The position numbers were made by a program, and so were the translations under genes. 64,000 nucleotides of DNA from a virus, in IMG/VR virus record IMGVR_UViG_3300025413_001393, positions 1-64,000 of that record; one strand, 5' to 3'. Below the pieces are notes generated by a model that was given only the letters and a program-made list of their open reading frames with translations, did not search any database and was not told the DNA's origin. Shown here in pieces: positions 34,653 through 63,479 of the stretch. Numbering within the stretch: the stretch's first letter is position 1; the number at the start of each line of letters is the position of its first letter.

Positions 34653-35320
34653 TTGCAATATGTTTCCTTAAATTTGATGTTCGCTTCTTCCCACTCTTTT
34701 GTCAACATAGAATCTCCAAGTCCATGATGAACGATTCTAATTGGAAGCACGCCACAAGTAACTTTTTTCTCATTTGCTCTCATACAAAAAGCAAGATCAT
34801 AAAAATGAAAATTAAAAGCTTCATCAAAATACAATTCGTTTTCAACTGCGTCTCTTACCTTAACAGCAAGAAACACACCATCTAGTGTAAGAGCTCTTGA
34901 GTTAGTTGGACCAAAGCATGTAGTCCATACATTGCCTTTGCTGCTATGAGCAACTTCCCCAACATAATCTTCTCTCTTAGAGGCAAGATGCCAGGCAAGC
35001 TTGTCGAGGCTGGTATTGAACGTTTTAGCGCCTGCTAGGCCTGTTATAGAATATGGACTATTAAAAAGCTTTTCTACTAAAAAGGCATCTTCTAGTTCCA
35101 CATCATCGTGAACAAACAAAACAACTTTGTCAATGTTTTCAGGATCCTTAAGAATTTCATTATAGCATGTTGAAAGCCCTCTTGTATTATCCTTAAACAA
35201 ATGAAAATTTACATCGTACCTTTCTTCATAATGATGCATAAGGCTCTTATACAAAGGCCTAGTTTCAAAGTCTTCAATAGACTTAGCTTTTGTGCAAGCA
35301 ACGATTAATAATTCACTCAT
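34649..35320 (-). CDS. GT-A glycosyltransferase
   Basis: 223 residues. VVLFVHDDVELEDAFLV gives the DxD-type metal motif (HDDVE), ALTLDGVFLAVKV is the acceptor-side strand and FDEAFNFHFYDLAFCMRA ends the catalytic core. The set matches the glycosyltransferase-like family PF13712. It is coupled to the DpdA-like gene upstream by a 4-nt overlap, which hints at a role in modifying DNA or virion components, though a host-surface target is also possible. It is unlike the two glycosyltransferases at 9555-12265. Confidence 0.75.
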   Translation of the reverse strand: MSELLIVACTKAKSIEDFETRPLYKSLMHHYEERYDVNFHLFKDNTRGLSTCYNEILKDPENIDKVVLFVHDDVELEDAFLVEKLFNSPYSITGLAGAKTFNTSLDKLAWHLASKREDYVGEVAHSSKGNVWTTCFGPTNSRALTLDGVFLAVKVRDAVENELYFDEAFNFHFYDLAFCMRANEKKVTCGVLPIRIVHHGLGDSMLTKEWEEANIKFKETYCK

Positions 35321-36108
35321 ATTTTGTTATACTTTGTTTTAAGATAGTTGATATTCTTTATAGCTAACTCAGTTTGTTCGTGTGTCAAACGAGTATTAAA
35401 ATAATCGTTAGTTGTTGGAATACGAGTAGTATCTCCACTCTCAAAACTAATACCATTAATTGCTGCAAGCACCGTATAACAACTATCGGAACTACGAATG
35501 TTTGGAATTTTGTTGTTTAGATAAAAATCAAACTCTGTGTGTTCTCCCATTCCAAGTAAATGAACAGACTTCAATAGCCAACCTCTCTTATACAATTCGT
35601 CAACACATTGATTTCTCGAAGAAGCTATTTGTGTATCTCCAGTTGCATTGTTCCAACATTTTGGAACAGCAATCTTACTAAGACCAATAGTACTACAATC
35701 TCCATCCGTTATCATCTTATAATAACAATCCATCCATTCTTGTTTGGTATTGCCTTGTGGACAAGCAAATATCTTAGTATGTTGAAGCAAACCTCTAATG
35801 GACATCTTCATCTTGAATGAATAATAATTCATTAATGTCTGAACTGTATCAAACAAAACATCTGGAGCAATAACTTCATTTGGTTTAAGCTCTTTAACAA
35901 CCTCCATCAGCTGATCTTCTGTTACAAGACTATCCTCTGCAGCTCCGTTATCAAGAGTTATCCAAGCATCTGGTTTAGTTCGTCTTATTTGCTGAAAGAA
36001 CCATCTATACGTTTCATCGTTCAGATAATGGTGACACAATACAAAGTATCTGTCCCCGTGACCAGTTAAAGCCAATTCAGTATTAGGAGGAATGAGATAA
36101 AAATCCAT
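35317..36108 (-). CDS. dpdA: DpdA/tRNA-guanine-transglycosylase-like base exchange enzyme
   Basis: 263 residues. Members of this TIM-barrel family swap guanine for a 7-deazaguanine base; phage DpdA does so in DNA. Visible segments are ITLDNGAAED (likely catalytic Asp region), VIAPDVLFDTVQTL, IFACPQGNTKQEWMDCY, TIGLSKIAVPK, VHLLGMGEHTEFDFY and IPNIRSSDSCYTV, in the order expected for DpdA-type proteins. The usual TGT zinc cysteines are not obvious. FolE2 and a QueD-like gene in the same window support the call. A fold relative with another substrate remains possible. Confidence 0.7.
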   Translation of the reverse strand: MDFYLIPPNTELALTGHGDRYFVLCHHYLNDETYRWFFQQIRRTKPDAWITLDNGAAEDSLVTEDQLMEVVKELKPNEVIAPDVLFDTVQTLMNYYSFKMKMSIRGLLQHTKIFACPQGNTKQEWMDCYYKMITDGDCSTIGLSKIAVPKCWNNATGDTQIASSRNQCVDELYKRGWLLKSVHLLGMGEHTEFDFYLNNKIPNIRSSDSCYTVLAAINGISFESGDTTRIPTTNDYFNTRLTHEQTELAIKNINYLKTKYNKI

Positions 36109-36122
36109 AGGTATAATTTAGC

Positions 36123-36554
36123 TTACTTTGAATCTTTTTCAAGTATGTATTTCTTCACTTCTAAGATACCAAGATTAATATCTCCCTGCTCTGCATCTTC
36201 AAAAGATTGACTATCTCCTTCTCGAGCTCTTTCATCATATCTACGTTTACGTTCATTTTGAGGACACTCAATCCACAAAACGGTTGCATCAGGAAATGCT
36301 TGCAAAATTTCTTTCTGTCTTACACCAGATACAACAAGTTGCTTTGGATTATTAAACGTAGAAAGTAAACGAAGATGTCCAATAATCTCGTTGAACATAT
36401 GCTTTGAATCTTGAAGCTTTTCTCTATCTACGGTTTTTTTCAAACCTCTTACAATATCTCCAACCTCAACAAAAACACAATCACTAATCTGACTTAGTGT
36501 TTTTGAATACAGAGTTTTACCACTACAAAGTTGACCACAAACAAATGATATCAT
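36123..36554 (-). CDS. P-loop (deoxy)nucleoside monophosphate kinase-like protein
   Basis: 143 residues. A Walker A motif GQLCSGKT sits at residues 7-14 and a DIVRGL segment follows as in AAA_18/adenylate-kinase-like enzymes. ATVLWIECPQNERKRRYDER has the expected late strand and the Arg-rich lid that contacts phosphate. It is short for a dNMP kinase. It lies between thyX and the DpdA-like gene, consistent with nucleotide supply. The substrate is not evident. Confidence 0.7.
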   Translation of the reverse strand: MISFVCGQLCSGKTLYSKTLSQISDCVFVEVGDIVRGLKKTVDREKLQDSKHMFNEIIGHLRLLSTFNNPKQLVVSGVRQKEILQAFPDATVLWIECPQNERKRRYDERAREGDSQSFEDAEQGDINLGILEVKKYILEKDSK

Positions 36555-36590
36555 TTTTAAAATATATATTAAAATTAATAAAATTCAAGA

Positions 36591-37232
36591 CTAATTATCC
36601 CAGCCTAATGCTTCAGAAATACTAGGAAACTCCTTAACAAAAATGTTTTTAATTTCCACAGCCACATCTCTATGCTCCTTTTGCGTCAACTCATCACAAC
36701 GTATTTGCAAATAATGTATCCAAGATCGGACTGTCCCGTGCATAATTACCGTTGTCGATGTATTAAGAGGAAGAATCATCCGAGCGCATTCCTTTGCAAG
36801 ACCAGCGGAAATAAGATCATCGTAAAGAGCAAGTGAGTTTTGTTGTATAAATTCTACCTTCAATTTTAGCTCGGGGCTCAAATCTACTTCAGTATCTCCT
36901 ACCTGTCTATTAGTTTTTCCTTGCAATCTCCATTCGATATCTTCAAGCTCGGTTGCTGTAGAATATCTTTGTGAAAATTCTTGAAACGAAAAACTTCTAT
37001 GTCTAAGAATTTGTGCAGCAATAGCTCGAGATGTTTTAATCTCGAATCCTACGCTGACCATCTCAAATGGCGAAAAGTGTTTATGGGTAATTAGATACTT
37101 TAACAGTTTTGGAGCTGTTTCGGTATTAAATTGGTTCGAAGGATTACTTACTCTTGCACAGTACGTAATCAATTCTTCTGCATTATTAATTCCTTTAACT
37201 AAAGGAGTAGAAATAGATATTAGCTTTACCAT
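36591..37232 (-). CDS. thyX: FAD-dependent thymidylate synthase ThyX
   Basis: 213 residues. The signature RHRSFSFQEFSQR matches the ThyX motif RHRxxSxxxxSxR. Other typical parts are VSVGFEIKTSRAIAAQILRH, ARMILPLNTSTTVIMHGTVR and WIHYLQIRCDELTQKEHRDV. It makes dTMP from dUMP using methylene-tetrahydrofolate and FAD, and fits with the dCMP deaminase at 52961. The start overlaps the QueD-like stop by 7 nt. Confidence 0.95.
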   Translation of the reverse strand: MVKLISISTPLVKGINNAEELITYCARVSNPSNQFNTETAPKLLKYLITHKHFSPFEMVSVGFEIKTSRAIAAQILRHRSFSFQEFSQRYSTATELEDIEWRLQGKTNRQVGDTEVDLSPELKLKVEFIQQNSLALYDDLISAGLAKECARMILPLNTSTTVIMHGTVRSWIHYLQIRCDELTQKEHRDVAVEIKNIFVKEFPSISEALGWDN

Positions 37233-37570
37233 TTGTAGTAGACGCGACCTCCATTTTCATTATCTTCGAGAACTTCGACCATATCACATTTGAATAGACC
37301 TCCAATCTGTTGTGCTAACATCTCGCACGACATTGCTCCAAGATTGCCTTGATAATATTGATCCAACCATTTAAGGATCTGCTGTTTAAAATCAATAATT
37401 TCAATGTCACGATCTTGGTGAGTTACTGTCTTTTCGCAAGTAATATGAAAAATATGTCTGTGAGGATACTGAAGGAAATGGACATGAGGCTTATCAGGAA
37501 TAGCCTCTGCTACTCCTGGCCAGTTGTGAAGAGCTTCGTATTGGAGTTTAACGATAATAGTTGTTCGCAT
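37226..37570 (-). CDS. queD: QueD/PTPS-like protein (divergent 6-carboxytetrahydropterin synthase fold)
   Basis: 114 residues from the ATG at 37570; a TTG five codons upstream is unlikely. Likely zinc ligands are H15 in EALHNW and H37/H39 in YPHRHIFHI; then HQDRDIEIIDF, SCEMLA and EVLEDNENGGR follow in the order of QueD/PTPS proteins. The catalytic cysteine normally placed before the HxH pair is not present, so the chemistry may differ. QueD makes CPH4 in the preQ0 route. FolE2 and DpdA-like genes nearby fit that pathway. It overlaps thyX by 7 nt. Confidence 0.65.
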   Translation of the reverse strand: MRTTIIVKLQYEALHNWPGVAEAIPDKPHVHFLQYPHRHIFHITCEKTVTHQDRDIEIIDFKQQILKWLDQYYQGNLGAMSCEMLAQQIGGLFKCDMVEVLEDNENGGRVYYKW

Positions 37571-37584
37571 ATATGCAGTATACA

Positions 37585-37624
37585 ATAAAAAAGGCCCCTC
37601 ACAACATTAAAGTCGTAAGGGGCC
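37585..37624 (-). terminator. Terminator after the small GC-rich gene
   Basis: On the minus strand GGCCCCTTACGAC pairs with GTTGTGAGGGGCC (one or two mismatches), followed by TTTTTTATT. It lies just after the 37641-37868 gene and reaches into the upstream region of the QueD-like gene. Confidence 0.9.
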
Positions 37625-37640
37625 TAAATTAAGCCAATTC

Positions 37641-37868
37641 TTAGGCAGCTACTGCAGCAAAACGGCCCTGCTTGTCGCGAACGTTGTAATAACGAGGACG
37701 AAGAACGACGTCGTTAGTGCGGTCGAGGAATCCGAGGAAGTCGTACTTGCTCTGATTGAGGTTACGAGCAATCATCTTGATCTTAGCTGTCGTGGACAGA
37801 CCAGAGCTGATGTTGTTCTTGCCGGTGATAGCCGTAATTGGCTTAATGTACGTGTTGTTTGTATTCAT
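37641..37868 (-). CDS. Small, probably highly expressed protein
   Basis: 75 residues, basic, not recognised. A Thr/Asn/Ile-rich N-terminus is followed by STTAKIKMIARNLNQSKYDF and RPRYYNVRDKQGRFAAVAA. The gene is more GC-rich than its neighbours and favours C-ending codons like gp23 and gp32, suggesting strong expression. It appears monocistronic: a strong hairpin terminator follows at once, and a TTGACA box lies upstream. It could be a capsid decoration or nucleoid protein, but nothing proves this. Confidence 0.6.
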   Translation of the reverse strand: MNTNNTYIKPITAITGKNNISSGLSTTAKIKMIARNLNQSKYDFLGFLDRTNDVVLRPRYYNVRDKQGRFAAVAA

Positions 37869-37879
37869 CGAGGTACATA

Positions 37880-37905
37880 TTCTTATATATCACTCGATAT
37901 GTCAA
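37880..37905 (-). promoter_or_regulatory. TTGACA-type promoter before 37641-37868
   Basis: Exact TTGACA at 37900-37905 on the minus strand and TATAAGAA at 37880-37887, 11 nt before the ATG. The spacing (12 nt to TATAAG) is short for a sigma-70 pair, so the -10 is uncertain. Confidence 0.4.
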
Positions 37906-37908
37906 CAG

Positions 37909-39093
37909 CTAAATTATTGCAGGACGTGAAAATACTTGAATACCAGAAAGATAAGGAACTTGATATGGTACAAATGACGCAAAATGGGACGAAGACGAAA
38001 GATATGGATTATATGTATTGATTTTTACATTCTCAGTAAGAAGACCGTATCCAGCTGGTCCTTCAATAATGACATCAATTAAACCAGGAGTTTGAATCGA
38101 AGGCATTACAAACGTAGTCAAGTTGTCGTTATTTGATTGCCATAGTGAAGGATCAATACGATAAGCAAAGAACGGAGGATAGTCTGCTGAAAGAGAAGGA
38201 ATAGCTGAAAACGGATTTTGAACAGTTGAAGCATAATGTACAGGACCACCGGATACATAAACGTTTTGTATTTTAGTCATTCCTGAACCATAAACATTAA
38301 ATTGTTGCAATTTTCCAACGTTCGTAAAATAAGGCTCAACTATCGAAGGACCTGGAGGAACTCCTTTTACTTGTTTATAGTCTGAATGATCCGTATCGAC
38401 TTGATATGCCGGATCAAGAAGATATTGTGGAGGCATTCCAGTGTATTCTGTAGAATAGTTTGTGTGGATAGTATAGATTGTTCCAATGCTTTCTGTTGGA
38501 GGAGCTTGGAACATCCAGCCTTTGAATGTAAAAGAAAGGTCTGCAACAACTTTAGCTACTTGTGTTGAAGAGATATCCATAGGATAACTCATTGCAACGT
38601 TGCCATCCCAGAATATACTAGAGCGTATTTCAAAATTTGGTCTAGCAGGTGTTGTCCAAGATACTGAAAAATACGGATTAACGTAAGGAATAATATGAGA
38701 TATGATTTGATCCATATCTTTTTGATATCTTGTAGCTACTGTTACTTTAAGATTTAAATCAATAGGAAGAGGAGTCTGCTCGTTTGATACAGAGCCACCT
38801 CCAACACTATTATATGTTCCAAGAAGTTTATTAAAGACTCTATTTGTATCTCTACTAATACCTCCAATATATACAGCAACAACAGGTAGTTGGAGATTCT
38901 GATCTTTATCCAAAAGGTCTGCCATCACTCTTTGCTTTGGAGCATACAGAACTCTTGTCTGTATTTGATCCTGAGCTTGTTTATTTTCGTTAAAACGCTT
39001 TACAACAATGTCCGAAATAGCGTTCAAAAAAACAGTAACCATCGTCTCAACCTCAAAATCATAGGTATAAACTCCTGGTATAATATTACTCAT
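37909..39093 (-). CDS. Tail sheath stabiliser / tail completion-like protein (gp15-like)
   Basis: 394 residues versus 272 for T4 gp15. The N-terminal half shows the family's layout: IQTRVLYAPKQRVMADLLD, LPVVAVYIGGISRDTNRV, LPIDLNLKVTVATRYQKDM, DQIISHIIPYVNPYF and later ADLSFTFKGWMF. The last 180 residues are an extension with Ig-like strands (VYVSGG, IDVIIEGPAGYG). The role would be capping the contracted tail end for head joining. Assignment is by motif pattern only. ATTAAATA lies 8 nt upstream. Confidence 0.55.
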   Translation of the reverse strand: MSNIIPGVYTYDFEVETMVTVFLNAISDIVVKRFNENKQAQDQIQTRVLYAPKQRVMADLLDKDQNLQLPVVAVYIGGISRDTNRVFNKLLGTYNSVGGGSVSNEQTPLPIDLNLKVTVATRYQKDMDQIISHIIPYVNPYFSVSWTTPARPNFEIRSSIFWDGNVAMSYPMDISSTQVAKVVADLSFTFKGWMFQAPPTESIGTIYTIHTNYSTEYTGMPPQYLLDPAYQVDTDHSDYKQVKGVPPGPSIVEPYFTNVGKLQQFNVYGSGMTKIQNVYVSGGPVHYASTVQNPFSAIPSLSADYPPFFAYRIDPSLWQSNNDNLTTFVMPSIQTPGLIDVIIEGPAGYGLLTENVKINTYNPYLSSSSHFASFVPYQVPYLSGIQVFSRPAII

Positions 39094-39107
39094 ATATTGT
39101 ATTTAAT

Positions 39108-39134
39108 GAAAAAACCCAAGCATTACACTTGGGT
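39108..39134 (-). terminator. Terminator after 39163-40062
   Basis: Minus-strand hairpin ACCCAAG/CTTGGGT with a 7-nt loop followed by six T. It separates the acidic protein gene from the gp15-like gene downstream. Confidence 0.85.
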
Positions 39135-39162
39135 CCTTTCTAATTTAAATGTTGTGTTTAGA

Positions 39163-40062
39163 TTAAACACCCCAAGCATCGAGATCTTCTGCGTCGTTTC
39201 CACCTAGTTCTCCGAGATCTTCAGGATTAATTGTTTCAATCTCTCCTGTACCGCCTTTTTCGAAATCTTCTTCGTTTGGTTCAGATGCAACTTTTACTTC
39301 AGGAACGAGAATACCTTTAGAAACAAAACTTGAAAGTATGCCGTCTACTTCTGAATCAGCAATGCCACCTCTCTTTACTAAGCCTCTAAGAGCCATCTTG
39401 AAATCCCGACCAGTATATTCTCCAACGGTACCTACTTCGTCAACTAGCGCATTGTAAGCTTCTTGTTGCGAATCGCTTAAAGAACCTTTAGCGTATTCAG
39501 AAGAAAGAGTGTATTCTTTATTAAGAGAAAATTCTTCAGCGGAAGCTGAACGAGCTGGCTTATGAGCTTTTGTTTCAATTCTTGCTTTTTGTCCCTCAGG
39601 TGTTGCAATTTCAGCAACTTTCTTCTTGAGAGCTGCACTAATTTCCTTCTGTGTAACTGGTTGTTCGTTCTGCATTGCGTTTGCAGCAACTTCAAACGTC
39701 ACACTACCAAGCAGTTCTTTGTTTGTCAAACGATCAGCAAGGAACTTTTGTGCCCATCCGCTCTTTTTCATTTCGGCTTCAATAGCCTTAAGCGTTTCTG
39801 CCTTGAGCTCTTCTTTTGTGTTAATGTAGGGATTGTGAGTATTATTGTTGTCAGGAAGAACACGATGAACAACCTTTCTGACAAAATCTGCCATAGCTGC
39901 TTCATCCCCCATCTTTACAACTGGTGTCCAGTGTCCTTTTCCAGATGCCTTAGCTGTTTGAACTGCCTTTGTTACGATTTCCTCTGGATTTTCATGAGAA
40001 ATAGGAGCTTCGTCTAAACGGCTCAAAACGGACTCGAGTAATGTATCAAAATTCTTTGTCAT
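39163..40062 (-). CDS. Hypothetical protein with capsid-targeting-like N-terminus and acidic tail
   Basis: 299 residues, mostly helical. MTKNFDTLLESVLSRLDEAP at the N-terminus is an amphipathic helix with LLE and LDEA, like gp21-cleaved targeting peptides. The middle is Lys/Ala-rich; the last 45 residues are strongly acidic and end EDLDAWGV. A hairpin terminator follows at 39108-39134, and GATAAATA lies 9 nt before the ATG, so this is its own transcription unit. Perhaps an internal head or scaffold-associated protein. Confidence 0.55.
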   Translation of the reverse strand: MTKNFDTLLESVLSRLDEAPISHENPEEIVTKAVQTAKASGKGHWTPVVKMGDEAAMADFVRKVVHRVLPDNNNTHNPYINTKEELKAETLKAIEAEMKKSGWAQKFLADRLTNKELLGSVTFEVAANAMQNEQPVTQKEISAALKKKVAEIATPEGQKARIETKAHKPARSASAEEFSLNKEYTLSSEYAKGSLSDSQQEAYNALVDEVGTVGEYTGRDFKMALRGLVKRGGIADSEVDGILSSFVSKGILVPEVKVASEPNEEDFEKGGTGEIETINPEDLGELGGNDAEDLDAWGV

Positions 40063-40071
40063 ATATTGGTT

Positions 40072-40079
40072 TATTTATC
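40072..40079 (-). promoter_or_regulatory. GATAAATA box
   Basis: 9 nt before the ATG at 40062 of the acidic-tailed protein. Confidence 0.45.
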
Positions 40080-40095
40080 AAACTACACTATAAAT

Positions 40096-40461
40096 TTAAA
40101 CTTCTTTAGTATGATCTTCAAGAAGCTTGTCATGCCATATTTTAGCATCTTCAACAGAATTGGGGTTGATATTTTTATAATTTCCAAGGTGACCAACTAG
40201 TAAGTGACATATAATGCCGTAGCTGGCGCTTTCACAAAGAGTCATTAGATTAGAAGGCTCGAGTTCAAGTTCTGGATGAAGATGAAATGGCTTAATATGA
40301 TGTACGTTGAGTTGCTTTGTATCTCCGCATATGACACATTTTGGATTATTCTTAAGATGTTCTTTACGAACTTTTGCCCATTGCGGCGAACGTTGAGGTC
40401 CATCTACTGGTGTTTTGCCTTGAGCAATATCGTTGGTGTGTTTTAAGCGGGTGGAAGCCAT
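40096..40461 (-). CDS. HNH endonuclease
   Basis: 121 residues. CVICGD (first zinc pair), LNVHHIKPFHLHPELELEPS (the HH of the beta-beta-alpha metal finger), NLMTLC and a final HLLVGHLGNYKNINP give a complete HNH domain of the phage type. Such genes can be homing nucleases or accessory packaging nucleases. It is divergent from the 940-residue fusion gene across only 36 nt that hold two opposing promoter-like octamers. Confidence 0.85.
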   Translation of the reverse strand: MASTRLKHTNDIAQGKTPVDGPQRSPQWAKVRKEHLKNNPKCVICGDTKQLNVHHIKPFHLHPELELEPSNLMTLCESASYGIICHLLVGHLGNYKNINPNSVEDAKIWHDKLLEDHTKEV

Positions 40462-40466
40462 AGTAA

Positions 40467-40489
40467 TACTTAGTTAAATTAGATAAATA
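40467..40489. promoter_or_regulatory. Back-to-back octamers in a 36-nt divergent gap
   Basis: ACTAAGTA on the minus strand (40467-40474, 5 nt before the HNH ATG) and GATAAATA on the plus strand (40482-40489, 8 nt before the fusion-gene ATG). Confidence 0.5.
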
Positions 40490-40497
40490 ACACTGAT

Positions 40498-44861: not shown

Positions 44862-44875
44862 TGTTGTTTATCTAA

Positions 44876-45139: not shown

Positions 45140-45144
45140 ATAGA

Positions 45145-45167
45145 TACTTATTGTAATTTGATAAGTA
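45145..45167. promoter_or_regulatory. Back-to-back octamers in the divergent gap before phoH leader
   Basis: AATAAGTA on the minus strand (45145-45152, 5 nt before the ATG at 45139) and GATAAGTA on the plus strand (45160-45167, 8 nt before the leader ATG). Confidence 0.5.
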
Positions 45168-45175
45168 ATATATAG

Positions 45176-52328: not shown

Positions 52329-52356
52329 ACCAAAAGTTAATAATTAAACTTCAGTT

Positions 52357-52533: not shown

Positions 52534-52537
52534 AAGA

Positions 52538-52545: not shown

Positions 52546-52550
52546 ATAAT

Positions 52551-53778: not shown

Positions 53779-53783
53779 CCCTG

Positions 53784-53791
53784 TACTTATG
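53784..53791 (-). promoter_or_regulatory. CATAAGTA box
   Basis: 5 nt before the ATG at 53778 of the FVFPDN-family gene. Confidence 0.35.
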
Positions 53792-53796
53792 CGGGT

Positions 53797-54510: not shown

Positions 54511-54529
54511 ATAAATATGCTCTTATAAA

Positions 54530-54898
54530 TTATTTGAATGTCAAGAAATACTTTAATCTGTCAACAATACCTAATATTTCGTCTCTAATATTAAACAATT
54601 CTGTATCCTTTATTGGATCTAATTGATCTACGGCTCTAGTAGAAAGAAACTCCATCATGTCTTTTATGAAGACTTCGTGATCAACTTCTTCTACGTTTAC
54701 AATCTCAATAGTAGTAAATGGTTTAAGACTAAATCTTTGATACTTACCTTGAAAACATTCAACAAATTTGTCTATCTGTTCATCTAAATCGTTATATGCT
54801 TTATTAAAAGCTTTATGTCTAGCATACGAAAACGTTTGCCAATGCAAAATTCTTATTTGTGTTTGGAACGTTAAAAGCTCAACTATCGTGTTTTCCAT
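54530..54898 (-). CDS. Ferritin/Dps-like small protein (DUF5856-like)
   Basis: 122 residues, all helical. ILHWQTFSYARHKAFNKAYN and DLDEQIDKFVECFQGKYQ match the helix pair of the DUF5856 family in large phages, which resembles Dps/ferritin-like proteins. The usual metal ligands (His, Asp, Glu) are partly present (H19, H28, D39, E47 region). A role in DNA protection or oxidative stress is plausible but unproven. Confidence 0.65.
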   Translation of the reverse strand: MENTIVELLTFQTQIRILHWQTFSYARHKAFNKAYNDLDEQIDKFVECFQGKYQRFSLKPFTTIEIVNVEEVDHEVFIKDMMEFLSTRAVDQLDPIKDTELFNIRDEILGIVDRLKYFLTFK

Positions 54899-54913
54899 TC
54901 CTTTAATTATAAC

Positions 54914-54944
54914 AAAAAAGAGGTGGAGTAAACCACCTCTTTTC
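54914..54944 (-). terminator. Bidirectional-looking terminator after tail tube gene
   Basis: Perfect stem AAAAGAGGTGG/CCACCTCTTTT with a 6-nt loop. On the minus strand it ends in TTTTTT and follows the gp19-like stop by about 25 nt. Confidence 0.88.
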
Positions 54945-54969
54945 GTATTTGATATATTTATTTTAAATG

Positions 54970-55557
54970 TTAGCGAATAACGCCTGGATTTGCACCAAAT
55001 GTACCAGGAGTTCCAAGATTACCAGCACTACCGTTGTCTGTCTGCTGAGTAATGCGCCAGAATTGATATGCAATTGTAGCATTTACTGTTGCAATTGTAC
55101 CGTTATCCTTAATGTCAAAAGCAGTGTCAGCAAGAGCTTGTACATATGCACCAAATAGTGTGTACTCTCTTGTTGGCTGATTTTGCTTATCAAGAAGCTG
55201 GAGGATGATATCACTGCCAACTGATGGTGTTGAATAGTTTCCTGTTGAATCAGCATCACTAAATGTGTTGAACAAGCTTTGCTCTAACACATCTCTGATG
55301 TTGTATGCTTGATCGCAACGGAATGTTACATTGTAACCAGCTGATCCTGGATAGGAAGCTGTACCCGGAACGTTGAAAGCAAGACCCATGTAAGGAACTG
55401 GAATATTGTTAATTTGTCTTCCTGGAAGGGAAGCGGTTTCAACATAAATTAGCTCATCGGTCAGATTCAAATTTCCAAACTTTATCAGTTGGAATTGAAA
55501 CAAACGAGCGAAGTCGTGTTGCTGTGCTTGAGAGTAGAAGGTTTGGATGTTTGACAT
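54970..55557 (-). CDS. gp19: Tail tube protein (T4 gp19-like)
   Basis: 195 residues versus 163 for T4. FARLFQFQLIKFGN, DELIYVETASLPGRQINNIP, VPYMGLAFNVPG and the strand GYNVTFRCDQAYNIRDVLEQ are standard tube features; YTLFGAYVQALADTAFDIKD follows. It follows the sheath gene by 18 nt, as in T4 18-19 order. AATAAATA lies 5 nt before the ATG and a hairpin terminator follows the stop. Confidence 0.92.
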   Translation of the reverse strand: MSNIQTFYSQAQQHDFARLFQFQLIKFGNLNLTDELIYVETASLPGRQINNIPVPYMGLAFNVPGTASYPGSAGYNVTFRCDQAYNIRDVLEQSLFNTFSDADSTGNYSTPSVGSDIILQLLDKQNQPTREYTLFGAYVQALADTAFDIKDNGTIATVNATIAYQFWRITQQTDNGSAGNLGTPGTFGANPGVIR

Positions 55558-55562
55558 AAGAT

Positions 55563-55570
55563 TATTTATT
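55563..55570 (-). promoter_or_regulatory. AATAAATA box before tail tube gene
   Basis: 5 nt before the gp19-like ATG at 55557, between sheath and tube genes. Confidence 0.4.
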
Positions 55571-55575
55571 TAATT

Positions 55576-57873
55576 TTAGATTAATTCTTGGAAGTTCTGA
55601 GCTGTTGTTGTAGCAATGAAGTTAACATTGATGAACTCAGCTGTTCTTACTGGCTTGAGATAGATGTCTACAACAAGCTGATTTTGATCGATAAGACTTG
55701 GTGTATTGTTTCTCTCATCGCAAATAATCAGATAATCATACAGACCGTTTGAGTTCTTTGCATATTCAAAAATAGGCGAAAGAGTGTTTCTGAGACGTGT
55801 ACGAGTGAAGTTTGTATTCGGTTCAAACACATAATATTTTAATGTACGTTGTGTTGAACGCTCGAGTGCTAGGAACAATCTACGAACATTGATTCTATCA
55901 AATGCTGATGGAGTGCCTTGAAGTGTTTTCTCACCGAAGATTGCAAAACCGTTTCCACTGAAGTTGGCAACTGGATTTACAGCAATGTCGTAGAACTTAT
56001 CACGCTGCTTTTGATTTGGATTGAAAGCAATATCAATTGCAACGAATGTACCTCTATTTAAACCAGCAGGAGCATACCATGGCTGAGCGACTGAATCATT
56101 TCTAGCAAATACAGCTGCTGCATAACCTGAGAATGGTACCCAAACATTTCTTCCAGAGAAGAGATCGTTAACCTTTACCCAGTTACCATAGATGGCTGTG
56201 TAGTTAGAGTTAATCGGATTAATCAACGACTGAAGGTTGTTGAAAATATCTACTGTGAAAGTTGAACCTGTTTGGTTGATTACTTTTGAGTCTTTACCAG
56301 AGATAAAGATCTGACGAAGAGGATCAAGGATTGCAACACAATCACGTCTTTGATTTTGAGCAAAGTTGATAAACTCATCAGCAACAGCATTCCAATTTTC
56401 ATTTAGTGATGAAACGGTATCTACATATGTAGTATCGTCATAGTTTGTTGAAGAATTGTTTTGTGTTGTAGCGTAGATTGTTGAAAGACCAGCATCAATA
56501 ACAACGTCGACGGTTGTATTTTCAGTTGAACTAATCAACGAAAGAACCTTACTAAGTTTGTTTGGAACTTCACCAATTGCTTTTGAATTAGCTACATCTG
56601 ATGTGTTTGGTGTATAAACACCAAGAGCGAACAATGATTTCGCTGAAGAATCTACACTAATTTGTGTGCGAGCCTCTGTATTTGTACTTGACCAGAGTGT
56701 ACTTTGAGATGAAGAAGGATTGACAAATACTTCAATTGTTTTTGATTTGCCGTTTACTACATCTTCAACGAAAGCGCTTTGTAGTGCACCACCAGTTGGG
56801 CTATTAACCTTACGAGTTAAATCAAGTGTACCAATATATTTTTCAACATTTGAAATTGCAATAGTTGTACCATCGACTGTAGAGCGGCGAAGTTTGTAAA
56901 CGCCAAGTGAAATTTGATCACTGTATTTAGTAGTGTAGAACCCTGTAAAACCAACGTTCTGAAGAGACTCTGATATACTTGGACTGTAAACAGATGAATC
57001 TTCTATTGAAGATGTAAGGATAGATACGTACGTTGTATTGTTGTTATACAAATTAGGAGAAAGAGAACCAAATCCATCTGCCGATGACAATGTCTGAATA
57101 GAAGTAATTGCATTATAACCACTCGTAGATGGGTCTGTGTTATTTGCTAAACCAATATAGTAGCCTTCCGCGTTTTCATTAATAACTGTTTGGAGATTGT
57201 TGATAATAAAGAAACCAGCTGTTGCAGAGGCACTGTTGAAGCTTGCCGAATCAGCAGATTGTTGAACTTGCGTAACCAAGACATTGCCTGACAGATCAGG
57301 AGCTGATACACTATAAAAATAGTTGCCACTTAAGCCAGGAGTAGGAGCAGATGCTGATCCAGTTGTATAAGTTGTTGTATAACCAGCTGGGTCTGTTGAA
57401 ACCCATGTAATATTACCTTGAACAATTTTATCGTGATCAGCTTGAGAAAGAGTTACATGAGTTGGAGCTCCGATTGTGTAACCAGGTGCAGGTGTTGCTG
57501 AAATAATTACATTTGTTGTATCAGCACTCAAAGTTAGTGTTTGATTTTGATAAAGAGGATAAAAAAGACCACTGTAAGCAGTAGCAAAATCCGAACCAGT
57601 ATCAGAACCGTATGGCAAACGAATTGTTGTAAGAGTACCTGGAGAGTTAAGAACTTCTGCACAACTGTAGTAGAAATAACGCTCAGCTGCTGTAGTTGGT
57701 GTTCCGTATACAGACTGAAGTTCACTTATTGTTGTAATAAGAAGAGGTTCACTCGTTGGGCCTTGAGCTGCAAAACCTGGAACAACGACGTTTGTTCCTG
57801 CTGGAAGGTTTGCTCTGAGACTCAAATCGATTTCGTTAATTTGTACGCCTGGAGATGTAATTGATAATGCCAT
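55576..57873 (-). CDS. gp18: Tail sheath protein (T4 gp18-like)
   Basis: 765 residues (T4: 659). The N-terminal SPGVQINEIDLSLRANLPAG and the C-terminal NFTRTRLRNTLSPIFEYAKN, ICDERNNTPSLIDQNQLVVD and VDIYLKPVRTAEFINVNFIA are classic contractile sheath motifs. The RDCVAILDPLRQ and YTAIYGNWVKVND strands form the conserved core. The middle (about 90-330) is an expanded surface insertion. GATAAATA lies 7 nt before the ATG. Confidence 0.95.
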   Translation of the reverse strand: MALSITSPGVQINEIDLSLRANLPAGTNVVVPGFAAQGPTSEPLLITTISELQSVYGTPTTAAERYFYYSCAEVLNSPGTLTTIRLPYGSDTGSDFATAYSGLFYPLYQNQTLTLSADTTNVIISATPAPGYTIGAPTHVTLSQADHDKIVQGNITWVSTDPAGYTTTYTTGSASAPTPGLSGNYFYSVSAPDLSGNVLVTQVQQSADSASFNSASATAGFFIINNLQTVINENAEGYYIGLANNTDPSTSGYNAITSIQTLSSADGFGSLSPNLYNNNTTYVSILTSSIEDSSVYSPSISESLQNVGFTGFYTTKYSDQISLGVYKLRRSTVDGTTIAISNVEKYIGTLDLTRKVNSPTGGALQSAFVEDVVNGKSKTIEVFVNPSSSQSTLWSSTNTEARTQISVDSSAKSLFALGVYTPNTSDVANSKAIGEVPNKLSKVLSLISSTENTTVDVVIDAGLSTIYATTQNNSSTNYDDTTYVDTVSSLNENWNAVADEFINFAQNQRRDCVAILDPLRQIFISGKDSKVINQTGSTFTVDIFNNLQSLINPINSNYTAIYGNWVKVNDLFSGRNVWVPFSGYAAAVFARNDSVAQPWYAPAGLNRGTFVAIDIAFNPNQKQRDKFYDIAVNPVANFSGNGFAIFGEKTLQGTPSAFDRINVRRLFLALERSTQRTLKYYVFEPNTNFTRTRLRNTLSPIFEYAKNSNGLYDYLIICDERNNTPSLIDQNQLVVDIYLKPVRTAEFINVNFIATTTAQNFQELI

Positions 57874-57880
57874 ATGATTT

Positions 57881-57888
57881 TATTTATC
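57881..57888 (-). promoter_or_regulatory. GATAAATA box before tail sheath gene
   Basis: 7 nt before the gp18-like ATG at 57873. Confidence 0.45.
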
Positions 57889-57906
57889 TAAAAACGGGGT
57901 AATTTT

Positions 57907-58494
57907 TTAACTTGGTTTAATAATATCTAGCTGACTATATTGAAATTCTACTGTGGAGTCAATAATATCTCCATCTCTATAAGAGTAATTAATTCCACCG
58001 AGGTTTGTTATGAAGGCATTGTAATACTTAAACTCTACAACTGCTTTGTCGTATTCATTTAATGCTAAAATAGACAAATTTGTTTGATATTCAGCGTTAT
58101 TACCGTTTTCTAATAAATTTTTTACACTAACTTGGTTGACTGGAGTACCTGTATAGGTGGAGCTTCTTGGATCGTTCAATAAAGCAAGCCACTTCCAGAG
58201 AACATAATAGTTGCTATATTGATTATCTACTAAAAAATTAACATTTAGAGGAGGATAATTTGGTCTTGAATGAGAAGAATAATTTGCACTTTGACCCCCA
58301 TATCTTACTTCGACAGCTGGAACTGAAATAGGAGGTACAACAGAACCATAAACACTTACCTGCAGTTTTTCAATATCTAACGTAGAATCTGTCAAAGACT
58401 GTTTCTTTAAAACATTAGGAAGCTCGAGGACAAGAATAAACTTGTCTTTCGACGCTCTATTTAAAGTTGATTGAGATGAAGGATTAACGGACAT
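57907..58494 (-). CDS. Second tail-tube-like protein
   Basis: 195 residues, exactly as long as the gp19-like protein. The order of strands is parallel: KFILVLELPNVLKK, LQVSVYGSVVPPISVPAVEV, RYGGQSANYSSHSRPNYPPL and NVNFLVDNQYSNYYVLWKW, ending DSTVEFQYSQLDII. It lies between terminase and sheath, and its start overlaps the terminase stop by 11 nt. It may be a tube paralogue that forms the tube end or baseplate-proximal ring; the call is by pattern. Confidence 0.6.
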   Translation of the reverse strand: MSVNPSSQSTLNRASKDKFILVLELPNVLKKQSLTDSTLDIEKLQVSVYGSVVPPISVPAVEVRYGGQSANYSSHSRPNYPPLNVNFLVDNQYSNYYVLWKWLALLNDPRSSTYTGTPVNQVSVKNLLENGNNAEYQTNLSILALNEYDKAVVEFKYYNAFITNLGGINYSYRDGDIIDSTVEFQYSQLDIIKPS

Positions 58495-60496
58495 TTGGAG
58501 GTATGAACATGTTGTAACCTTGTTCTATTAAGGATTCCATGTCTAATTCATACTTATGGTCAAAATCCATATTTCTAAAAATGTTATCTGTACTATGAGT
58601 ATAAGATGCATCAATATCAACTCCTGGATTTGGTACAACATTGGGCGAAACGCTAAGATCTCTTAGTTGATAGTCTTCGTTAATTTTTTCCCAATAACCA
58701 TTTGTAGCAATTTTCATCGGTTTGTGTTGAGTATCAAATTGAGCAATAGTAAAATATTGTTCACAAATTTCAGGCTCTAAAATGAAAAGAGCCCACACAA
58801 GAGCCATAATTCTATCGTCGAAGAAATTATCATTACGTTTTTTATAAATTCCGTTTGGTTGTCTTACAAACGTTTCGAATTCTGATATTGTTGTAGGGTC
58901 GTTAATCTTAACTACTTCCAAATGGTTGATCCAATAACGCATGTTTTGTATACCATCAAATTTAATATTAGTATGAGATAGTACACCTAAGTTACGAGTT
59001 CTATTATATTTGTCACTCTCAGAAATTTTATTGTAGCTAGTAATTTTTTCGTATTGGTGTTTGTAATATAAGGCATCAATAACTTGAGCTCCGCAATTAT
59101 TTCTTTCAATTAACATAGGAGCACAACCCCATGAATGACCAATTGTGTTTAATTTATTTGCAAAGTGAAACGGTTCAATTGTTGCTGAACCATATACAGC
59201 CACTTGATGTATTTCTTGCAAATTTGTTACATCTAGTACTTGAGCAACTGAAGCTGCTCTGCCTATACCTTCTCCTACATCTACTCCAATTACGTATAAT
59301 TTATTAGGATCGGGATATTCAAACACAGAGTATTCTTCATCCTCAGAAACCCATATAGCGGGTTTCTTTTCTCGTTTAAAGCGTTCAATGACCGACGCTC
59401 CAACAGCTGCTGCTGCATCATCCAAGAATACATTACCAAACTCTTGTAAGAATTTTTCTTCTGAACCACCAAGAGCAGCAATCATATCTTCTTTCCAAGA
59501 TTCATCTCTACCTGGAACATCGTGCCAGTTCATTCTTTCCGCTACCCAACCCTTAATTGTTTTCTTTTCAGCCCCTGAATATATTTCGTAAAATTTATTG
59601 CCAATACCATTTGGAGTTGACACCATTAAAATTTTAGAAGTTTTACCAGATGAAATTGAAGGTATAACCGAAGCCCAAAATTCATCTAGTAAGTGAGATT
59701 CAATAAACGCAGCCTCATCAATAGCAAGACAGTTTAGAGTATCACCACGAATGGATGTAGCGGTTGTAGTAGAAACGATGATGCTCGAATCGTTATCGAG
59801 TGTCATGCCGGTTTTGCCGTACTCCTTAACACCTGCCTTGATATAGTTAGGCAACTGTTCGTAAGCCATACGAATACGTTTAAAAATATTAATGGCTGTT
59901 GTTTCTTTATTTGCAACAATTGCAGCTCTGTGGTCATTATGAAACAAAGCCATCCATAAAACGAAAATAGTAAGAAGAGTACTCTTACCAGTCTGTCTTG
60001 CAGCCAGTAAAGCTACAAAGCGATTGTCGACCAAAGATCTAAGAATATTTTCTTGAACAGGATGTAATTTGATTAACTGTTTGCCTTTGTCAAGAGTAAC
60101 AACTTGAAAGAAATTTTCAGCAAAATATACAATGTCTTCTTTACATTTTTTGAGATTTAAAACCATCTCCGCTGTGAATTCGTATTGAGCTCCAGCAATA
60201 GGTACGTTTTTAGAACCTCTATAATAATAAGATTCGTCAATAGGATTTTCATTGACAATTTTATCAGTATTATAATTTAAACCTTGCTCGGTTAATTTAG
60301 TATCATCTAAATACGAATCTAACAAAGCATCTTCAGATTTAGATGTAATGTTCTTTACAATTGATACCTCTTCATTAATTTTAGGAGGTCTGCCTCTTGG
60401 CTTTTTCTTAACAGGATTTTTTGGTCTTCCTCTTTTTGGTTTATTTTTACTTCCTTTTGGTCGACCTTTTCTTGACTCGATATCCTCGTCACTCAT
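58484..60496 (-). CDS. terL: Terminase large subunit (T4 gp17-like) with N-terminal AT-hooks
   Basis: 670 residues. The ATPase has Walker A AARQTGKST (165-173) and Walker B LNCLAIDEAAFI (254-265); the nuclease has VIGVDVGEGIGRA and a FDDRIMALVWAL end. It cuts concatemeric DNA and pumps it through the portal. The first 40 residues carry three AT-hook-like motifs (GRPKG at 11-15, RGRPKN at 22-27, RGRPP at 34-38) in a Lys-rich stretch, which T4 gp17 lacks and which should bind the minor groove of AT-rich DNA. Confidence 0.96.
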   Translation of the reverse strand: MSDEDIESRKGRPKGSKNKPKRGRPKNPVKKKPRGRPPKINEEVSIVKNITSKSEDALLDSYLDDTKLTEQGLNYNTDKIVNENPIDESYYYRGSKNVPIAGAQYEFTAEMVLNLKKCKEDIVYFAENFFQVVTLDKGKQLIKLHPVQENILRSLVDNRFVALLAARQTGKSTLLTIFVLWMALFHNDHRAAIVANKETTAINIFKRIRMAYEQLPNYIKAGVKEYGKTGMTLDNDSSIIVSTTTATSIRGDTLNCLAIDEAAFIESHLLDEFWASVIPSISSGKTSKILMVSTPNGIGNKFYEIYSGAEKKTIKGWVAERMNWHDVPGRDESWKEDMIAALGGSEEKFLQEFGNVFLDDAAAAVGASVIERFKREKKPAIWVSEDEEYSVFEYPDPNKLYVIGVDVGEGIGRAASVAQVLDVTNLQEIHQVAVYGSATIEPFHFANKLNTIGHSWGCAPMLIERNNCGAQVIDALYYKHQYEKITSYNKISESDKYNRTRNLGVLSHTNIKFDGIQNMRYWINHLEVVKINDPTTISEFETFVRQPNGIYKKRNDNFFDDRIMALVWALFILEPEICEQYFTIAQFDTQHKPMKIATNGYWEKINEDYQLRDLSVSPNVVPNPGVDIDASYTHSTDNIFRNMDFDHKYELDMESLIEQGYNMFIPPNVR

Positions 60497-60497
60497 A

Positions 60498-60890
60498 CTA
60501 TGTTCTGTTATTTACTATCTCAATAAGAGTTGAACGCATTAAATCTACTAATGCACTTTCGTCTTTCTCAGACGAAGCATTAAAGATGCAAATCTTTTCA
60601 CCAGTCATAGAAAATCCAACCAACGAAAAGCAACTCAAGTATTCCTGAGTCAGTAAAGCTAAATGATTAAAGTCTTTGTACGTTTGTTTTTTGTGAGTTA
60701 ACAATTCGTGTTTGAACCCTTCTAATGCTTGCGCAAAAACTTGTTCGATGTTGATTTGCTCAACTTTTGACAAAGGCATTAAATCGGAATTAACAGGTGT
60801 TGGAGTAACAACTACGTCCTGTATTTGATCAGGCGTCTTTATCCGTTTTGTTTTCTTAAGTTTTTTTTTGGACGGTTGTTCTTCCGACAT
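60498..60890 (-). CDS. Hypothetical protein upstream of terminase
   Basis: 130 residues from the ATG at 60890; a TTG five codons upstream is not preferred. It has a Lys-rich disordered N-terminus (SEEQPSKKKLKKTKRIKTPD), then a helix and a beta/helix region (EYLSCFSLVGFSMTGEKICI). It sits 1 nt before terL in the place of the small terminase in T4, but it shows no helix-turn-helix or ring-forming pattern, so I do not call it gp16. Confidence 0.5.
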   Translation of the reverse strand: MSEEQPSKKKLKKTKRIKTPDQIQDVVVTPTPVNSDLMPLSKVEQINIEQVFAQALEGFKHELLTHKKQTYKDFNHLALLTQEYLSCFSLVGFSMTGEKICIFNASSEKDESALVDLMRSTLIEIVNNRT

Positions 60891-60919
60891 TAATCTATTT
60901 AACAATAGATCTTACACCG

Positions 60920-61228
60920 TCAAGCTTTTCCGGTACCGCGAATTCCGTATTTTACAAGATGTTCAATTAGAACTTCAAACGAACTCGTTTGCAAGCGAAC
61001 CTTACCAGGAACAAACTGACTACCGTCATACAACTCGAAAAAGCTTTCACCAAGATATGGATCATTAACCCAGCATGTACAAAATACTGAAGACACTCCG
61101 GGCTCAATAACTACTGTCCAAGCACGTGGATCCCCTATAGCATAATCCGTAAAAACTTTATGAGATACGTAACCCGAATCACGAAGTCTCTTTAGAAAGT
61201 AACCAAGAGTTGTAAGTTTGTTTGCCAT
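60920..61228 (-). CDS. Hypothetical phage protein
   Basis: 102 residues. TLGYFLKRLRDSGYVSHKVF, DPRAWTVVIEPGVSSVFCTC and TSSFEVLIEHLVKYGIRG form a compact alpha/beta protein of a type conserved among T4-like phages of marine bacteria but without a known function. It lies between the sliding clamp gene and the terminase region. Confidence 0.6.
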   Translation of the reverse strand: MANKLTTLGYFLKRLRDSGYVSHKVFTDYAIGDPRAWTVVIEPGVSSVFCTCWVNDPYLGESFFELYDGSQFVPGKVRLQTSSFEVLIEHLVKYGIRGTGKA

Positions 61229-61247
61229 ATAGAAGTAATTAGTAAAA

Positions 61248-61964
61248 CTACTTTACAAGTCCAGAAATAATATATTTTGTATGAGGAGTTTCAAACTTAA
61301 AGATTTTAAGCTGATGATTAATGCTAACACAAATTCTATCATCAACAAAACTCATAAGCAAAATGTTTTGTATGTTCAATGGAATTGCCTCCTTTAGAGG
61401 TTCCAGAGTATGAGAAGCTGCAACTTCTATTTTAATCTCGTTTGTATTGCATTTTTGATCGTCTCCAATCTTAGCAAAAACTTTTCCTGCTTCTGTATAA
61501 AAATACAACTTTTCAGCATCAGGAATAATAGAATTGTATTTTAAAATTTCCGACAATTTAGCTTTTGTAATCTCAAAACTCGTGTCGTAAGTTATTTTGT
61601 TTAACTTGTCTTCACTAAAAGCTCTATTATTACTAATATAGTTGTCATCAAGAAGATGATATTTGAATGACAAAGTAGAGCTTTTATATTCAACTATATT
61701 AGAATTAAATTCCAAAAAAACTTCATCTTCTTCAATACCTGAAATTAAACGAAGGAATGTTTTTGTTTCAGGAATGATAATTTTTGCATTTTCACTCACA
61801 TGGGAGCACACAAGAGAAGCAAAAAGAATAATAGAATTATCTGTCGAAGGGACTAAAACTTTTAACTCATCAGTATTAATATCTAAACAAACGTTATCGG
61901 ATAACTTGCTAGAAGGAACTAAAATATTTTCGACAAATATTCTTTTATTAAATTTGATATTCAT
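61248..61964 (-). CDS. gp45: Sliding clamp / DNA polymerase processivity factor (T4 gp45-like)
   Basis: 238 residues against 228 for T4 gp45. The two-domain PCNA-like strand pattern is visible, with ITKAKLSEILKYNSIIPDAE and LYFYTEAGKVFAKIGDD in the second half and VCLDINTDELKVLVPS in the first. It tethers the polymerase to DNA and, in T4, also activates late transcription through gp33/gp55. ATGA couples it to the upstream gene. Confidence 0.8.
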   Translation of the reverse strand: MNIKFNKRIFVENILVPSSKLSDNVCLDINTDELKVLVPSTDNSIILFASLVCSHVSENAKIIIPETKTFLRLISGIEEDEVFLEFNSNIVEYKSSTLSFKYHLLDDNYISNNRAFSEDKLNKITYDTSFEITKAKLSEILKYNSIIPDAEKLYFYTEAGKVFAKIGDDQKCNTNEIKIEVAASHTLEPLKEAIPLNIQNILLMSFVDDRICVSINHQLKIFKFETPHTKYIISGLVK

Positions 61965-62476
61965 TCTGCTACAGTCGACTTGGATTTCTTAGAAGGTACG
62001 TTTGCATTTTCTAAAGCATTTGCAATTCTCTCTAAGCTCTTGCTAATCATTTCAATATGCTTAATGACAGAACTAGCTTCGACGTTATTACTATTACCAA
62101 AGAAATCTGCAAACGTAAGTTGATCAGACTCTTCGCGTGTAATAGCAGGAGTTACAGGTTGGTTTAACTGATGTGTAATAACTTGAGGAGTTCTTTGCTG
62201 AACAGGTTGAGGAGGAACAACATATTGAGGCTCAGGCTCTTCTTTTGGATAAGACATTTCTGCTTCTCTCTGAACTGCTTCGAGAATCCTTCTCTCGTCA
62301 TCTCTCAAATTAGCTGATGATCTTTGTCCGTTCGACGACAAAAATTGTTTAGGATTAAGTCTAGTAGCTGGCCCAGACATAGAAGCTTGTTGAGTAGTAT
62401 TTTGATCTACTCTCAACAATTCACTACCAAATATTTGAGCTACCTTTGCTGCTGCTAATTTATCTTCTGTTATCAT
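61961..62476 (-). CDS. Hypothetical disordered protein between folE2 and clamp gene
   Basis: 171 residues, mostly disordered: a helical N-terminus (DKLAAAKVAQIFGSELL), a Pro/Gln-rich middle (PEPQYVVPPQPVQQRTPQVI), and a C-terminal helix (VIKHIEMISKSLERIANALE). No recognised domain. It lies directly upstream of the gp45-like gene with an ATGA overlap, so it may be a replication accessory; no direct evidence. Confidence 0.5.
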   Translation of the reverse strand: MITEDKLAAAKVAQIFGSELLRVDQNTTQQASMSGPATRLNPKQFLSSNGQRSSANLRDDERRILEAVQREAEMSYPKEEPEPQYVVPPQPVQQRTPQVITHQLNQPVTPAITREESDQLTFADFFGNSNNVEASSVIKHIEMISKSLERIANALENANVPSKKSKSTVAE

Positions 62477-62477
62477 A

Positions 62478-63479
62478 TTATTTTAAACCGTTTTGTATAC
62501 CTTTGCAAATTACTGCAGTAGCTGACCACGGATGCAAACTCTCCAAATGGTCTGTTACGATACTAAAATCTAAAACTTTACCGTTGCTATACAACTCATC
62601 CAACCCTTCGTATAGAAGGCGAATCGCATCCTCAGTAAAAAGCAAATTAGAACCATTCAATTCAGCAAATGCTTGCTCATCTCTACGCTTGCAAATAATC
62701 ACAACCTCAGTAGGAACTTTTGTTCGAGCCATTTCAATAATGTCTTCAATGTATACAACATTCTTAGGATCAAATTGAATTGTGATCTTAGCAATAGAAC
62801 GTTGACTGTGACCATTTGCTGCCTGTCCTCGCTTGTTAGTTGCATCTTGTGCTAGCTCAAAAGAACAAGGGCATGTTGAACTATAAACATAATCAACAGT
62901 CAAGTAAAACTTGTATTCTGTTCCATGCTTTTGACCTTCAAGAATGCAATTATAATAAATGTAACCTTCAGCCTTTTCGTGACTTAGTTTTACTCCATCA
63001 ACAATTTTAAATACATCGCTATCTGGGGCATTGTCAGGCAACTCCTTACGAGTACGAAGAGCCCTTTGCGTCCACGGATATTTAAACTTCATCTTGCAGT
63101 ATACATCCTTCGACCCTTGCTTGCTTTGAAGCACATCAAGAATATGAGTAATACCTTCAATAGAAACGTGATTAGCAATCTGCTCGTGCATTACAATAGG
63201 AAACCTGCTAAGGTTCAATCCTTTTGCATTTGGATTATCTAAAGATCCATACAGCGAAACGGTAGCAGTTAACTTTTCAATCGAACCATCTCGACGAATA
63301 AAATTAACAGGAAGATCTACACCTGATACACCTACTTTATTGATAGGCACACGAGCTCCAGGAAGAACCGGATCCACTTGAGGATCCGGTAAATCTGCAT
63401 CTTCGGGATAATATGTCTCGTCGTACTTAAAATTCAGACGAGGCATATGAGCTGTATAATCGTTATAATGATAAGACAT
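62478..63479 (-). CDS. folE2: GTP cyclohydrolase FolE2-type (GTP cyclohydrolase IB)
   Basis: 333 residues. Signature parts are INKVGVSGVDLPVNF, TVSLYGSL...KGLNLSRFP (86-94), SSTCPCSFEL with C203/C205, NGHSQRS with H224, YIEDIIEMA, KRRDEQAF and FTEDAIR. They occur in the FolE2 order. It makes dihydroneopterin triphosphate from GTP, the first step of folate and of 7-deazaguanine (preQ0) synthesis. A DpdA-like and a QueD-like gene in the window favour the latter. It lies upstream of the gp45 genes. Confidence 0.9.
   Translation of the reverse strand: MSYHYNDYTAHMPRLNFKYDETYYPEDADLPDPQVDPVLPGARVPINKVGVSGVDLPVNFIRRDGSIEKLTATVSLYGSLDNPNAKGLNLSRFPIVMHEQIANHVSIEGITHILDVLQSKQGSKDVYCKMKFKYPWTQRALRTRKELPDNAPDSDVFKIVDGVKLSHEKAEGYIYYNCILEGQKHGTEYKFYLTVDYVYSSTCPCSFELAQDATNKRGQAANGHSQRSIAKITIQFDPKNVVYIEDIIEMARTKVPTEVVIICKRRDEQAFAELNGSNLLFTEDAIRLLYEGLDELYSNGKVLDFSIVTDHLESLHPWSATAVICKGIQNGLK

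Follow-up and report, generated by a model that had tools for sequence, protein, structure and literature searches.

Background

In the pathway of the Enterobacteria phage 9g type, a FolE-family enzyme, QueD and QueE make 7-carboxy-7-deazaguanine (CDG), and DpdA inserts a deazaguanine into the DNA (Hutinet et al. 2019, PMC6884629). The route from guanosine triphosphate (GTP) to CDG by FolE, QueD and QueE is established and has been restated in PMC13329287. Extensive 7-deazaguanine modification was reported for Cellulophaga phage phi38:2 (PMC11515303), and a deazaguanine system has already been noted in phage PA5oct (PMC7824862). Here we describe the predicted 7-deazaguanine DNA-modification genes of an environmental virus, IMG/VR record IMGVR_UViG_3300025413_001393 (125,102 bp), of which the first 64 kb (positions 1 to 64,000, the window) had been annotated before. 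It differs from the 9g type in that QueC is missing and a small QueD-like T-fold protein present in its stead, that the first enzyme is FolE2 and not FolE, and that the gene of the DpdA-like enzyme is coupled to one for a glycosyltransferase. Of the features that define the preQ0/G+ form, the record has the FolE-type enzyme, QueD and QueE, and lacks QueC.

The same order of DpdA-like, T-fold and kinase genes, together with QueD and QueE and again without QueC, is present in Cellulophaga phages phiST, phi13:1 and phi19:2 and in Chryseobacterium phage MA9V-3. However, these clusters encode FolE (GTP cyclohydrolase I) and not FolE2, their pathway genes are close together, and no glycosyltransferase gene is adjacent. 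The DpdA of Flavobacterium phage vB_FspM_immuto_2-6A (immuto) is a homologue of the DpdA-like protein described here, but the operon differs: it contains a QueF-type gene, a phosphoribosyltransferase and a formyltransferase, and the fetched stretch gave no T-fold match. We consider it probable that the present virus encodes a QueC-less, FolE2-fed deazaguanine DNA pathway, in which the T-fold protein processes CDG, DpdA inserts the base and the glycosyltransferase probably decorates it.

Results

Pathway genes in the virus record

The first-pass annotation of the window had proposed a partial pathway from three separate loci encoding FolE2, a QueD/PTPS-like protein and a DpdA-like protein related to tRNA-guanine transglycosylase (TGT). 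All three open reading frames (ORFs) are real and lie on the minus strand, at 62478-63479 (333 amino acids), 37226-37585 (119 amino acids) and 35317-36108 (263 amino acids), respectively; the end first given for the second one, 37570, corresponds to an internal ATG. FolE2 is indeed 25 kb away from the others, but these two, the DpdA-like and the QueD-like gene, are parts of a single run of genes. The pathway is also less partial than was thought. A search of the rest of the genome for queC and queE found queE (record 87037-87795; phrog_2076, E 1.7e-40), and a QueD gene is present as well (record 88570-89010; PTPS, E 2.9e-17; phrog_2389, E 1.3e-36). Both are located outside the window, about 25 kb beyond FolE2. 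No queC was found, as PF06508 gave no match in the 125-kb record.

The genome thus encodes the steps from GTP to CDG (FolE2, QueD and QueE) and not the step from CDG to preQ0. This genome alone is unlikely to yield preQ0, the product implied by the annotation, since neither it nor the loci of its relatives contain QueC. None of the 19 virus records searched, the present one included, had a QueC over the cut-off; QueC was detected in 14 of 14 control genomes.

The QueD-like T-fold protein

The protein encoded at 37226-37585 belongs to phrog_17812, a family listed as of unknown function. It had no Pfam match, and the PHROG QueD profile reached only E 0.17. Its AlphaFold model (predicted local distance difference test score, pLDDT, 94.9) nevertheless has the QueD fold, with E. 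coli QueD (4ntk, 4ntm) as the closest solved structure (best PDB match in Foldseek, E 9.5e-5). In alignments with QueD and PTPS 2dj6 the protein retains the zinc histidines and the pterin-binding Glu, but has Leu at the position of the catalytic Cys of QueD and lacks the Asp-His pair (DH motif); the lack of the Cys had been recognised before. A search of PDB sequences with the T-fold profile returned only PTPS 2dj6 (E 0.12).

Across 35 divergent members 17 positions are invariant, including H20, H42, R43, H44, E62, S86-C87-E88, E107-D108 and E110-N111-G112. The protein would bind zinc through H20, H42 and H44, judging from the alignments. With a true QueD encoded elsewhere in the record, it is a separate T-fold family and not the QueD of the pathway. 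It may well be a zinc protein able to bind a pterin or deazaguanine and unable to run the QueD reaction, which would fit an enzyme that acts on CDG.

The family is widespread, with at least 582 matching stretches in IMG/VR, and phage PA5oct and Acidovorax phage ACP17 (gp125) also carry the T-fold, both with a glycosyltransferase gene next to it. In MA9V-3 (L005:10644-11528) and Vibrio phage Bakedbeans (L045:5191-6372) the domain forms the C-terminal part of a longer ORF; the N-terminal part in MA9V-3 looks like an HNH-type homing nuclease. Homologues in bacterial and archaeal assemblies, either prophage-like or, as in Magnetospirillum, chromosomal, mostly have the same context. Some of the bacterial contigs are very large, and those of Magnetospirillum (L343, L345, L347 and L348) have clusters of glycosyltransferase, T-fold, DpdA-type and QueD genes, possibly for modification of host DNA or as a prophage remnant.

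The true QueD of the record was inspected as well. It reads FRQW...SHC..IHGY where AH...C..HGH is canonical, so that only one of the three usual zinc histidines is kept; phi38:2, phiST and MA9V-3 have this variant too. A composite active site, in which the T-fold protein and the variant QueD would each keep what the other lost, was considered and set aside because phi38:2 has this QueD variant beside QueC, without a T-fold in the fetched stretch.

Mutual exclusion of the T-fold protein and QueC

In the 121 fetched loci of the T-fold family another pathway gene was always present within 10 kb (121/121). A DpdA/TGT-like gene was found in 108 of them and QueC in none. To avoid the bias of seeding with the T-fold, IMG/VR was scanned with QueC and with QueE, and 80 loci were taken from each scan; an alignment of very diverse QueE proteins was unusable for scanning, and a narrower one was used. 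None of the 80 QueC-found loci contained the T-fold. The QueE-found loci had QueC in 67 cases, the T-fold in four and both in none. When all QueE-bearing loci were combined, 67 had only the T-fold, 133 only QueC, none both and 10 neither (Fisher p 1.5e-44). The exclusion remained after clustering of QueE at 60% identity (p 2.8e-21). A few QueE clusters, at 60% as well as at 40%, mix T-fold loci with QueC loci, and therefore the swap between the two has probably occurred more than once.

This exclusion holds at the level of the locus, in environmental contigs. Of 12 whole records, ten lacked QueC, Xanthomonas phage X1 had a match below the threshold, and only in Vibrio phage D479 did a match, a partial one, exceed the cut-off. 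The first-pass description of a QueD/PTPS-like protein is correct for the fold, but the protein is a separate enzyme, mutually exclusive with QueC.

FolE2 as the entry enzyme

The ORF at 62478-63479 was correctly recognised as the FolE2 type (GTP cyclohydrolase IB). It matches PF02649 with 178 bits against a cut-off of 25 (E 2.9e-52), and the NCBIfam FolE2 equivalog model with 198.9 bits (E 1e-58), slightly below the cut-off of 215 of that model. In alignment with the solved FolE2 structures 2r5r and 3d2o the motifs CPCS, HSQR and ESLH are preserved. Of 29 phage FolE2 loci 28 have all of them intact, and the remaining one is truncated. FolE2 had no PHROG match and zero matches in 50,697 phage records. 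In IMG/VR it is encoded by 26 loci with 70-100% identity, a conserved clade in environmental viruses.

Although FolE2 is distant from the other genes in the present record, an operon of QueE, QueD, FolE2, T-fold and DpdA is found in L110, L117 and L339, the last from a Bacteroidetes assembly. In four larger contigs the distance between the FolE2 and T-fold genes is 2-5 kb. FolE2 and FolE were never found together, neither in the 19 virus records (seven with FolE2 and eight with FolE) nor in a single locus (29 FolE2 loci and 211 FolE loci). Since no record or locus holds both, FolE2 is a member of the pathway that substitutes for FolE. FolE2 is important for bacteria under zinc shortage; that phage FolE2 has a similar role is our guess. 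As far as the present searches show, this is the first FolE2 in phages, and a literature search found no paper on the subject.

The DpdA-like transglycosylase

The protein encoded at 35317-36108 is a member of phrog_20335, listed without a function. Its relatives in phiST, phi13:1, phi19:2 and MA9V-3 share 41-42% identity with it. The TGT profile PF01702 had no match in the whole record, and hmmscan of the ORF was likewise negative. Other phage DpdA-type proteins also miss PF01702, which is thus not a defining test for phage DpdA. In contrast, the AlphaFold model (pLDDT 92.6) had tRNA-guanine transglycosylase as its first PDB match in Foldseek (E 8.9e-6), together with Cap10 and DpdA 7ui4 (E 3.3e-4), and the profile of the family matches the annotated DpdA of phage immuto (E 3.5e-20). 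The earlier DpdA/TGT-like assignment was right as to fold and homology, then, but not in the sense of a match to the TGT profile. Against PDB sequences the DpdA-like profile gave nothing significant.

Two residues, D53 (LDNG) and D208 (RSSDS), do not vary among 20 relatives. In a profile comparison that is weak (E 0.019) they fall opposite LDSG and YSCDS in the DpdA of phage 9g, and they may be compared with the catalytic D102 and D280 of TGT. The protein is predicted to exchange guanine in DNA. No member of the tRNA-type TGT family was found in the record.

The glycosyltransferase and other neighbouring genes

Directly downstream of the DpdA-like gene a glycosyltransferase (Glyco_tranf_2_5, PF13712, E 1.4e-7) is encoded on the minus strand at 34649-35320. 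Its ORF overlaps the DpdA-like stop by 4 bp, which agrees with the coupling described in the first-pass annotation. The glycosyltransferase adjoins DpdA in about 18 related loci. More generally, 70 of 80 T-fold-found loci had a glycosyltransferase close to the T-fold gene, compared with none of the 80 QueC loci. The profiles used here were built from T-fold loci, hence a separate check with Pfam was performed: Glycos_transf_1 was present in 14 of 58 T-fold neighbours, and the 25 families most frequent in 150 QueC neighbours included no glycosyltransferase. The median gap between the glycosyltransferase and T-fold genes is 340 bp, and the former occurs beside at least five DpdA classes. Two unrelated types are involved (PF00534-like and PF13712), the family of other phages sitting at the equivalent place. 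The immuto-type DpdA loci also lack the glycosyltransferase; because both these and the phiST-type loci do without it, it is regarded as a tailoring enzyme and not as a core step.

In two loci a fusion of a cytidylyltransferase with a mannose-6-phosphate isomerase (cupin) adjoins the T-fold gene (L072:10609-11376 and L106:10348-11115), and an epimerase is also found near the T-fold gene. This suggests a dedicated supply of sugar nucleotides. In L058, L063, L065 and L090 the T-fold and glycosyltransferase genes are separated by an additional ORF, with a radical SAM match in L058 and L063 and a weak one in L090; it could encode a further tailoring enzyme.

A P-loop kinase linked to the pathway is encoded at 36123-36554 (minus strand; PF13238, E 1.1e-9), between the T-fold and DpdA-like genes as in phiST and MA9V-3. 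In L057, L147-L151 and L153 the kinase and the T-fold domain form one fusion protein, which ties the two functionally. The kinase profile was contaminated by the fused T-fold domains, and its locus counts were set aside. The kinase may salvage the guanine nucleotides that are released, or it may activate an intermediate. The FAD-dependent thymidylate synthase ThyX (36591-37232, minus strand; PF02511, E 1.2e-47) separates the T-fold and kinase genes in the closest relatives only (L014, L054 and L134); it is seen as an insertion in the gene run and is not considered part of the pathway. Outside the window, at record 75145-81364, sequence inspection revealed about seven successive minus-strand genes that look like glycosyltransferase or sugar-related genes. 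A PADLOC scan gave no meaningful match.

Discussion

Gene content and folds support the 7-deazaguanine DNA-modification pathway with FolE2, a TGT-superfamily enzyme and a glycosyltransferase that was first proposed for the window. The substrates and the order of the steps may be as follows. FolE2, QueD and QueE would convert GTP to CDG. The zinc-binding T-fold protein, in the place of QueC, would process CDG, most likely by decarboxylation to 7-deazaguanine, and the DpdA-like transglycosylase would put this base in place of guanine in the phage DNA. A sugar would then probably be added by the adjacent glycosyltransferase, and the modified DNA may be protected against restriction. More tentatively, with chances somewhat short of even, this may apply to a large QueC-free branch in which the zinc T-fold protein converts CDG, DpdA inserts the base and the glycosyltransferase glycosylates it, some of these phages being fed by FolE2 instead of FolE.

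Several observations weigh against the proposed pathway. In the present record distances of about 25 kb separate FolE2, QueD/QueE and the DpdA cassette, and their link is made through relatives. The record is possibly incomplete, and QueC could come from the host. In Vibrio phage D479 (OZ195776.1), which has the T-fold, a partial QueC-family match exceeds the cut-off (153872-154066, 32.8 bits), at a distance of about 100 kb from the T-fold gene; it is the only such T-fold-bearing record. Profile-profile comparison (hhalign) of the DpdA-like and T-fold families with small sets of other DpdA and QueD proteins was weak or non-significant, and for this reason the family placement rests on the fold and on the immuto DpdA match. 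As for the last step, phiST and MA9V-3, the phages with the nearest GenBank relatives, have no adjacent glycosyltransferase, and the close clade also conserves genes beyond the glycosyltransferase, so that the adjacency there could be mere synteny.

One alternative concerns the glycosylation step only, and we regard it as rather doubtful: the glycosyltransferases could be surface or O-antigen genes that happen to be nearby. Enzymes of the PF13712 and GT4 types often serve to make surface polysaccharides, and another group of sugar-type genes is present in this genome, at 75-81 kb of the record. Yet chance neighbourhood does not fit two unrelated glycosyltransferase types in a similar place beside several DpdA classes, at so short a median gap, nor the lack of glycosyltransferases near QueC-type pathways.

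It is unlikely, though to be taken seriously, that the T-fold protein performs another step on CDG, such as reduction, esterification or kinase-aided activation, giving another 7-substituent as the acceptor for the glycosyltransferase. The fusions with the P-loop kinase and the invariant SCE and EDxENG motifs would suit such a reaction, and bare 7-deazaguanine offers a glycosyl acceptor only at carbon 7 or at a ring or amino nitrogen. However, the kinase occurs in only part of the family, as judged with the contaminated kinase profile, and no reductase-type partner was noticed.

Improbable in our opinion is the ordinary preQ0 route, in which the phage makes CDG, QueC of the host finishes preQ0 and DpdA inserts it, the T-fold protein being a degenerate QueD. 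Most bacteria encode QueC, as did all 14 control genomes, and phages are thought to use host steps in some cases (PMC6884629), but a dispensable copy of QueD would not keep 17 invariant positions in 35 divergent members, and would not exclude QueC across 200 QueE-bearing loci. That FolE2, QueD and QueE serve the folate or tRNA queuosine metabolism of the infected cell is highly improbable: FolE-type enzymes do feed folate synthesis and FolE2 is far from the DpdA gene here, but the record has no tRNA-type TGT, FolE2 lies within DpdA-bearing operons elsewhere, and nearly all T-fold loci (108/121) contain a DpdA/TGT-like gene.

Cui et al. 2023 reportedly described a CDG decarboxylase, DpdL, leading to 2'-deoxy-7-deazaguanine (dDG), and a DpdA3 phage subfamily that is said to allow complete replacement of guanine. 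FolE2 and a link to a glycosyltransferase are not known to be part of that dDG route. As a lead, the T-fold and DpdA-like proteins may belong to the DpdL and DpdA3 families. In our literature search no paper naming DpdA3 or phage DpdL was found. A search on phage deazaguanines and glycosyltransferases revealed no glycosylated deazaguanine in DNA in titles and abstracts. The glycosyltransferase beside the DpdA-like enzyme thus hints at a sugar-decorated base that the searchable papers do not describe.

The results assign a pathway to phrog_17812, a widespread family of listed unknown function. The genetic rule that a locus has either the T-fold or QueC, and never both, predicts which deazaguanine a phage makes. 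If the link with the glycosyltransferase is true, phage DNA would contain a class of glycosylated 7-deazaguanines that would escape targeted searches for the masses of known nucleosides.

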